A stretch of DNA of 64,000 nucleotides from positions 1 to 64,000 of the forward strand of contig JAKALA010000005.1 of assembly GCA_021813325.1 (NCBI GenBank), in the 5' to 3' direction. Under the pieces are notes generated by a model. It ran no database searches. It saw only the letters and a list, made by a program, of their open reading frames with translations, and was not told the origin of the DNA. Source of the DNA: a bacterium. GTDB taxonomy: Bacteria > Verrucomicrobiota > Verrucomicrobiia > Limisphaerales > UBA11358. Every line of letters starts with the position of its first letter. The first letter of the stretch is position 1. Below, piece by piece: positions 51,862-53,223 of this stretch. The position numbers were made by a program, and so were the translations under genes.

Positions 51862-52054
51862 CTTGAAAGACTAATTCATCAAATCCTGTTTCCAGAGAAA
51901 AATCTGCGTTCGGAAATTCGACGTGCCCGGAGCAAAACCGGGGTTTCACCGGCCGCGGATATTTTTATCCGCCCTGAAAAAATAACAACACCTTGCCGGC
52001 ACACTCAAATTGGAGAAAACCCGATTTTAAATGGAAAAACCGTAATTTTCGGGT

Positions 52055-52071
52055 TGGCATTGCCTGTGCTA
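52055..52071 (+). promoter_or_regulatory. Sigma-54-like promoter element
   Basis: TGGCA followed by TGCT has GG and GC separated by exactly 10 bases, the -24/-12 spacing required by sigma-54 promoters. It lies 11 bases before the start of the inverted-repeat block. Matches outside the GG/GC core are partial, so the call is tentative. Confidence 0.4.
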
Positions 52072-52105
52072 AAGTTGGCGTCGGTTGAAATGTTTGGTTA
52101 TGTTT

Positions 52106-52283
52106 TGGGTGGGGAACCCAGGCGGTTGGAGCAAACGCGGGTTGGGGAACCGGCGTTCCGTTTCAACCGCTTTCAAAACAGGAGGAACACCTCGCACGCG
52201 CCCGGTTGATTTGCCTGCAACTTGAACCGCGCATCATCAAGGAGGTGGTGGTCGGTTGCAACTGGATTAACGTGGCGCGTGCG
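52106..52283 (+). ncRNA. Candidate structured RNA (leader or small RNA) upstream of mqnD
   Basis: Nested perfect stems are visible. TGGGT/ACCCA is 52106-52110 with 52116-52120. GCGGTTG/CAACCGC is 52122-52128 with 52164-52170, enclosing AAACG/CGTTT and GGTT/AACC. GAGG/CCTC is 52182-52185 with 52190-52193. A 10-bp stem CGCACGCGCC/GGCGCGTGCG is 52193-52202 with 52274-52283 and encloses CGGTT/AACCG plus AAGGAGGTG at 52239-52247. I recognise no named RNA family. It could be a 5' regulatory leader of mqnD or an independent RNA. Confidence 0.5.
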
Positions 52284-52371
52284 TGTAACCAACCATGAAT
52301 CCACTGCCGAGCATAACATTCATCAGCCTTCTCGTCGTGACAGCCCAGGCCGCTTGGTATAATTTTCGCCG

Positions 52372-53223
52372 GTGCAAACGACGACCTTGACCCTCGGCCA
52401 TTCGCCCGATCCGGACGATGCTTTCATGTTTTATGCTTTGGCAAAGGAACTGATTCCCTCGCCCGGCTATCGTTTCGAACACATTTTGCAGGACATTCAA
52501 ACGCTGAACGAGCGCGCCACCCGCGGCGAACTCGACATCACGGCGGTCAGCATTCACGCCTACGCCTTCGTCTCCGACAAATACGCCCTGTTGCCCAGCG
52601 GCGCCAGCATGGGCGACGGCTACGGCCCCATGTTGGTGGCAAAACAGAAATTTTCGCGGGACGAAATTGCCAAAAAGAAAATTGCCGTGCCCGGCACCAT
52701 GACCAGCGCCTTTCTCGCGCTGCAACTCTGGCTCGGCAAGCCGGCCAAGGAATTCAACTACGTCGTGGTGCCGTTCGACCAGATTTTTGCCGCCGTGAAA
52801 AACGGCATGGCTGAAATCGGCCTGATCATTCATGAAGGCCAGTTGACGTATCAAAACGAAGGCCTCGTCGTCTGCGAAGATCTGGGCATTTGGTGGGGCC
52901 GGCAAAACGACGGGCTGCCCCTGCCCTTGGGCGGCAATGTGATTCACAAGAAATTCGCCCCCGCCGTGCGCAAGCAGATTTCCGACACCCTCACCGCCAG
53001 CATCCGTTACAGCCTGGATCACCGCCCCGAAGCCGTGCAGCACGCCCTGCAATACGCCCGCGACATGGGACGCGATCTGGCCGACAAATTCGTGGGCATG
53101 TATGTGAATCACTGGACCCTCGATTACGGCGAAAAAGGCCGCGAATCCATCCGGCGCTTCCTCGGCCAGGCCTTTGACCGCGGCATCATTCCGCACCGGC
53201 AGGAATTGGAATTCGTCGTGTAA
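52372..53223 (+). CDS. mqnD: 1,4-dihydroxy-6-naphthoate synthase MqnD (futalosine menaquinone pathway)
   Basis: The 283-residue protein starts GTG 52372 (MQTTTLTLGHSPDPDDAFMF). The block LGHSPDPDDAFMFYAL and the later YGPMLVAKQKF, VPGTMTSAFLALQLWLG, AAVKNGMAEIGLIIHEGQL and DLGIWWGRQNDGLPLPLGG are those of MqnD. It converts cyclic de-hypoxanthine futalosine to 1,4-dihydroxy-6-naphthoate, a menaquinone precursor. Other mqn genes are not in the window. A TATAAT lies 8 bases before the GTG and no Shine-Dalgarno is visible, so a leaderless transcript is possible in addition to one from the upstream structured region. Confidence 0.93.
   Translation: MQTTTLTLGHSPDPDDAFMFYALAKELIPSPGYRFEHILQDIQTLNERATRGELDITAVSIHAYAFVSDKYALLPSGASMGDGYGPMLVAKQKFSRDEIAKKKIAVPGTMTSAFLALQLWLGKPAKEFNYVVVPFDQIFAAVKNGMAEIGLIIHEGQLTYQNEGLVVCEDLGIWWGRQNDGLPLPLGGNVIHKKFAPAVRKQISDTLTASIRYSLDHRPEAVQHALQYARDMGRDLADKFVGMYVNHWTLDYGEKGRESIRRFLGQAFDRGIIPHRQELEFVV

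Follow-up and report, generated by a model that had tools for sequence, protein, structure and literature searches.

CrcZ is a sigma-54-driven small RNA (sRNA) that works as a protein decoy. Decoys of the CsrB/RsmY type, which sequester CsrA, are structured sRNAs with repeated G-rich or GGA-containing loops. The free-standing sRNA NrsZ of Pseudomonas, ~200 nt long, is a nitrogen-stress RNA whose synthesis depends on NtrB/C and RpoN (PMC8395346). A motif of another kind is found in Bacteroidetes that make scarce use of the Shine-Dalgarno sequence (SD), where the rpsU mRNA carries a strong SD (PMC10783764). A literature search retrieved no paper joining sigma54-dependent small RNAs with Verrucomicrobia.

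The locus reported here lies in a window of 64,000 nucleotides (the whole stretch of DNA analysed) from a Limisphaerales genome of 4.28 Mb, designated G000. NrsZ is the system that its RNA appears, by analogy, to work most like. The two have in common a free-standing gene of ~200 nt, a sigma-54 promoter, and nitrogen control, which was shown for NrsZ and is suggested here by a common promoter architecture. They differ in phylum and in structure, and the RNA studied here has SD-like and GGGG loops, no Hfq found alongside it and no match in Rfam. Structured G-rich loops are a likeness to CsrB/RsmY, but GGA sites are few in this RNA and not strictly kept, and CsrA was undetected in 21 of its 35 carriers. 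The decoy-like logic of a sigma-54-dependent sRNA would be shared with CrcZ, whose motif is different. Like the rpsU SD, the apical loop retains a strong SD-like sequence in a clade that otherwise avoids SDs; unlike it, the sequence is part of a non-coding RNA with no start codon downstream. The RNA comes with a promoter, a likely regulon and a testable partner.

Structure and distribution of the RNA

The preliminary description of this DNA recognized a structured intergenic block, and all the elements it named were found in their places. The GG-N10-GC element is present as TTGGCATTGCCTGTGCT (GG at 52056-57, GC at 52068-69); the 10-bp perfect pair between CGCACGCGCC (52193-52202) and GGCGCGTGCG (52274-52283) encloses 71 nt including further hairpins; and the anti-16S motif AAGGAGGTG is not followed by a plausible start codon. 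The block very probably encodes an independent sRNA of ~200 nt, transcribed from a sigma-54 promoter (Table 1). Its 5′ end was placed from the position of the sigma-54 box, and its 3′ end (~52300) is uncertain because most copies are without a clear intrinsic terminator.

Table 1. Features of the putative sRNA locus and of the adjacent mqnD promoter (window coordinates)
Feature	Position	Strand	Basis
Upstream element conserved among copies, TATCCGCCCTGAAAAAATAACAACAC here and TnnnCnnnCTGnnAAAAAnncAACAG as consensus of the genus; candidate site for an enhancer-binding protein of NtrC type	51966..51991	+	Matrix score
Putative sigma-54 (-24/-12) promoter TTGGCATTGCCTGTGCT	52054..52070	+	GGCAY-N7-GCT in 37/37 copies
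Predicted small RNA gene	~52081..52300	+	Fold z = -5.0, covariation, conserved in 35/49 genus genomes
P1 5′ arm ATGTTTGGTTA	52090..52100	+	Partner 52286-52296; not conserved in some copies
G-rich site 1 GGGTGGGGAACCC	52107..52119	+	Conserved block in 26-copy alignment
P2 hairpin; stem varies, apical loop GGGG (52144-52147) conserved	52121..52171	+	Individual folds, 36 copies
G-rich linker ACAGGAGGAACAC (site 3)	52178..52190	+	Alignment of copies
P3 long hairpin, base CGCACGCGCC/GGCGCGTGCG	52193..52283	+	Covarying helices 1-3
Apical SD-like loop AAGGAGGTG (site 4)	52239..52247	+	GG(A/G)G in 37/37 copies, duplex energies
P1 3′ arm TAACCAACCAT	52286..52296	+	Fold and inverted-arm listing
-35 box GTGACA of mqnD promoter, outside the RNA	52337..52342	+	Exactly -35 in 36/42 mqnD upstream regions
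-10 box TAATTT of mqnD promoter, 17-bp spacer	52360..52365	+	T-12 A-11 ... T-7 in 38/42

The plus strand of segment 52070-52300 folds at -103.9 kcal/mol, compared to -79.6 +/- 4.8 for shuffled sequences (z = -5.0, none of 200 as good), while the 317-nt stretch delimited in the preliminary description gives z = -3.7. The structure model runs from a 5′ G/U-rich stretch with GGGUGGGGA through P2 and the linker AAGGAGGAACAC to P3 with its AAGGAGG apical loop. The 5′ half is a long hairpin whose stem varies among the 36 copies that have this domain, the GGGG apical loop being present in most of them. P3 is the part covered by both covariance models used below. Neither a tRNA nor a tmRNA was detected in the whole window, and Rfam 15 gave no match at the gathering threshold in the window and none at E <= 5 in segment 51850-52420. 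The RNA is a member of no known family by any test run; the preliminary description had likewise left its family unnamed.

By DNA search, numerous genomes of the genus matched the block at 70–81% identity; the first 24 loci obtained were all directly upstream of mqnD. A covariance model built on the 3′ domain (107 nt) recovered it in 35 of 49 genomes of the genus; 97 genomes from elsewhere in the order gave no match. A second model, run on 320 genomes of the order with stricter filters that may lose weak matches, returned the same 35 genomes, all in the genus, and none of 271 others. The copies collected from the 35 genomes of this single Limisphaerales genus number 37; G032:C139:122180 (E 8e-4) may be a further one. 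The RNA is dispensable, since it is missing from, or escaped detection in, 14 of the 49 genus genomes. Its carriers are freshwater and peat Verrucomicrobiota, MAGs recorded as Limisphaerales or “Verrucomicrobia subdivision 3”, a few with broader labels.

When 26 copies are aligned by plain MAFFT, the 24 consensus pairs are 95.7% paired, while slid structures used as control reach at most 42.5%. Changes on both sides affect 11 of the 24 pairs and 43 cells (5.0 and 9.9 when shuffled). With 37 copies, in an alignment fitted to the structure, they affect 14 of 23 pairs and 92 cells (8.0 and 21.9 when shuffled). These alignment counts show a structure maintained at the RNA level with compensatory base changes: the stems noted originally in the window are present and covary in relatives.

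Position relative to mqnD

Some 30 of the 37 copies are immediately upstream of mqnD, a gene of the vitamin K (menaquinone) pathway, and this location would suit the metabolite-sensing 5′ leader or riboswitch initially proposed as one possibility. However, mqnD is preceded by a sigma-70 promoter of its own that is conserved and located downstream of the RNA gene (Table 1), with an inferred transcription start at the start codon itself (52372), and this promoter is kept also in genus members where the RNA was not found. The RNA is not the leader of mqnD because that promoter stands between it and the start codon. Terminator-like hairpins ahead of the mqnD promoter (L015, L020) and the existence of five copies distant from mqnD (two in G011, one each in G030 and G032, and the second copy of G017) also oppose the leader reading, which we regard as very improbable. 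Each of the five distal copies has its own sigma-54 box, so that the RNA unit is considered a free gene. The other possibility raised initially, a free small RNA exposing an anti-ribosome motif, is supported as anatomy by these distal copies and by the SD-like loop found in every copy.

Conservation between the RNA and mqnD could in principle be accounted for by a small protein, MNPLPSITFISLLVVTAQAAWYNFRRCKRRP (52297-52389), whose frame was seen by inspection to be open in many relatives. The frame is nevertheless interrupted by stops in L005 and L113, and the conserved letters, invariant third codon positions included, fit the -35/-10 spacing. The short ORF was rejected on these grounds as the main source of conservation, for which it is an extremely unlikely explanation.

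A few observations concern the neighborhood. The mqnD mRNA is apparently leaderless, its genus-wide promoter GTGACA-17-TAATTT (52337-52372) being preceded by a conserved CTTCTCGTC. A distal copy in G011 and in G032 (L107, L108) is found near a gene with a NuoD-like product, a second site that seems to be shared. A CvfB/S1 neighbor was discarded as functional partner, as it occurs only in G000 loci among the loci compared. On the minus strand, segment 41963-50839 of the window codes for a multidomain protein of 2958 residues that is probably secreted.

Sigma-54 promoter and upstream element

All 37 copies feature the GGCAY-N7-GCT box, which is positioned 87–137 bp before the modelled domain in 36 of them; in L114 it is only 6 nt before the model match and the 5′ domain is seemingly lost. 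RpoN is encoded in 67 of 69 genomes searched. Both results agree with the sigma-54-like character attributed to the box in the preliminary description.

No perfect dyad in front of the sigma-54 box is common to the copies compared. A shared element was recognized in this region by direct inspection, followed by matrix refinement. It is positioned ~65–85 bp before the box and scores at least 17 bits in 35 of 36 copies. It accompanies most copies, most of the distal ones included, irrespective of the gene found upstream. When ~275 kb of G000 were scanned with the matrix, only two other sites exceeded 12 bits, the best scoring 14.1 compared to 30.4 for the site at 51966-51991. A strict pattern composed of this upstream activator-type sequence (UAS) and the sigma-54 box (UAS-N57..87-sigma-54) has 21 matches in 49 genomes, compared to one for the reversed control. 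Sixteen are RNA genes, two are upstream of glnK, which codes PII and is followed by amtB, one is upstream of the glutamine synthetase gene glnA, and two are apparently in coding sequence. The window's own copy falls outside the strict pattern due to replacement of ACAG by ACAC.

The matrix, for which RNA upstream regions alone were used, ranks the promoters of glnA (G012) and glnK (G041, G007) first to third among all positions of 47 kb. These gln promoters also carry sigma-54 boxes, and the combination of UAS and box is common to the RNA gene and the glnK/glnA promoters in the three genomes; the glnA sites of G041 and G007 are weaker than the glnK sites there. The promoter comparison shows an upstream element, of putative activator type, common to the RNA and to glnK-amtB and glnA. 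Its presence at these sigma-54 promoters leads us to infer an NtrC-type activator and induction under nitrogen limitation, a mode of control that we consider likely for the RNA. The glnK promoters (L161, L162) have two copies of the element ~36 bp apart, and a single copy is apparently present in the RNA promoters. Complementarity between the RNA 5′ end and the glnK leader (CACAACC in L161 and L162) was set aside, being lost in G012.

G-rich loops and candidate partners

The AAGGAGG apical loop is complementary to the 16S rRNA 3′ tail CACCTCCTT. In G000 this tail reads GGATCACCTCCTT, with the anti-SD intact. Duplexes between loop and tail have a mean energy of -10.8 kcal/mol, compared to -5.5 kcal/mol for shuffled loops, and by this comparison the RNA presents an accessible complement of the 16S tail. 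Some Verrucomicrobia have been reported as SD-scarce with an intact CCUCC (PMC10783764). By a rough measure relying on uncurated start sites, SDs precede candidate starts of G000 at close to background frequency (0.09 vs. 0.07 of ORFs); applied to E. coli, this measure detects SD use (0.50 vs. 0.00). Across the window and L164-L175, start codons of G000 have almost no SD enrichment despite the intact 16S tail.

GGA motifs within hairpin loops and linkers would also befit a sigma-54-driven decoy that sequesters CsrA/RsmA in the manner of CsrB/RsmY. CsrA is encoded by G000 and 13 other RNA-bearing genomes, and there is a weak association between RNA and CsrA (14/21/1/13, Fisher p = 0.04, uncorrected for relatedness). 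However, CsrA is patchy in the genus (15 of 49 genomes), and the 21 carriers without detectable CsrA include several that are 94–97% complete. Accessible GGA motifs, 3–4 per copy on average, are not more frequent where CsrA is present (3.1 per RNA, compared to 3.9 in genomes without it), and in L048 and L111 the apical loop changes from GGA to GGG, which keeps CCUCC pairing while losing the CsrA core. The CsrA sponge, plausible from anatomy, is contradicted by this distribution and was rejected as quite improbable.

The patchy occurrence of CsrA, the invariant loop, the scarcity of SDs and the failure to find Hfq (0 of 59 genomes of genus and order) lead us to favor base pairing through the G-rich loops, with the 16S anti-SD as first candidate. 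A nitrogen-stress sRNA acting through these loops, whichever their partner, is the explanation that we moderately favor. When nitrogen is limiting, the sigma-54 polymerase would be activated by an enhancer-binding protein of NtrC type located ~65–85 bp upstream of the box. The RNA produced would act by pairing of its G-rich loops, independently of Hfq because none was detected in the genomes searched. In the leading candidate the AAGGAGG loop would pair with the 16S anti-SD, and 30S subunits could be sequestered or marked in cells whose mRNAs make hardly any use of SDs. Pairing with CU-rich mRNAs or sRNAs would be the next candidate.

Pairing of the loop with the ribosomal anti-SD is proposed tentatively, at a likelihood well short of even. 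An unknown protein could equally be the partner of the SD-like loops, and Bacteroidetes ribosomes are reported to hide their anti-SD (PMC10783764); should those of the present clade do the same, ordinary 30S subunits would be inaccessible to the loop. The complete scheme, in which an RNA made in nitrogen starvation captures 30S subunits by SD mimicry and a near-idle anti-SD is a docking site for regulatory RNA, is rather unlikely as formulated. It would imply control of translation without competition against ordinary initiation and, if the SD-like loop does bind ribosomes, a function for the conserved, little-used anti-SD of SD-scarce bacteria.

The RNA may instead act in trans on specific CU-rich mRNAs through its G-rich loops or the 5′ stretch GUUGUGGUUUUGGGUGGGG, the likeness to an SD being incidental. 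NrsZ is reported to act in such a mode on rhlA (PMC8395346), and a nitrogen-type promoter, a conserved unpaired 5′ stretch and a GGGG loop additional to the SD-like one are compatible with it. This is a possible reading, though not one that we would expect to hold, and it has to be reconciled with an apical loop that in all 37 copies contains GGAG or GGGG, both compatible with the anti-SD.
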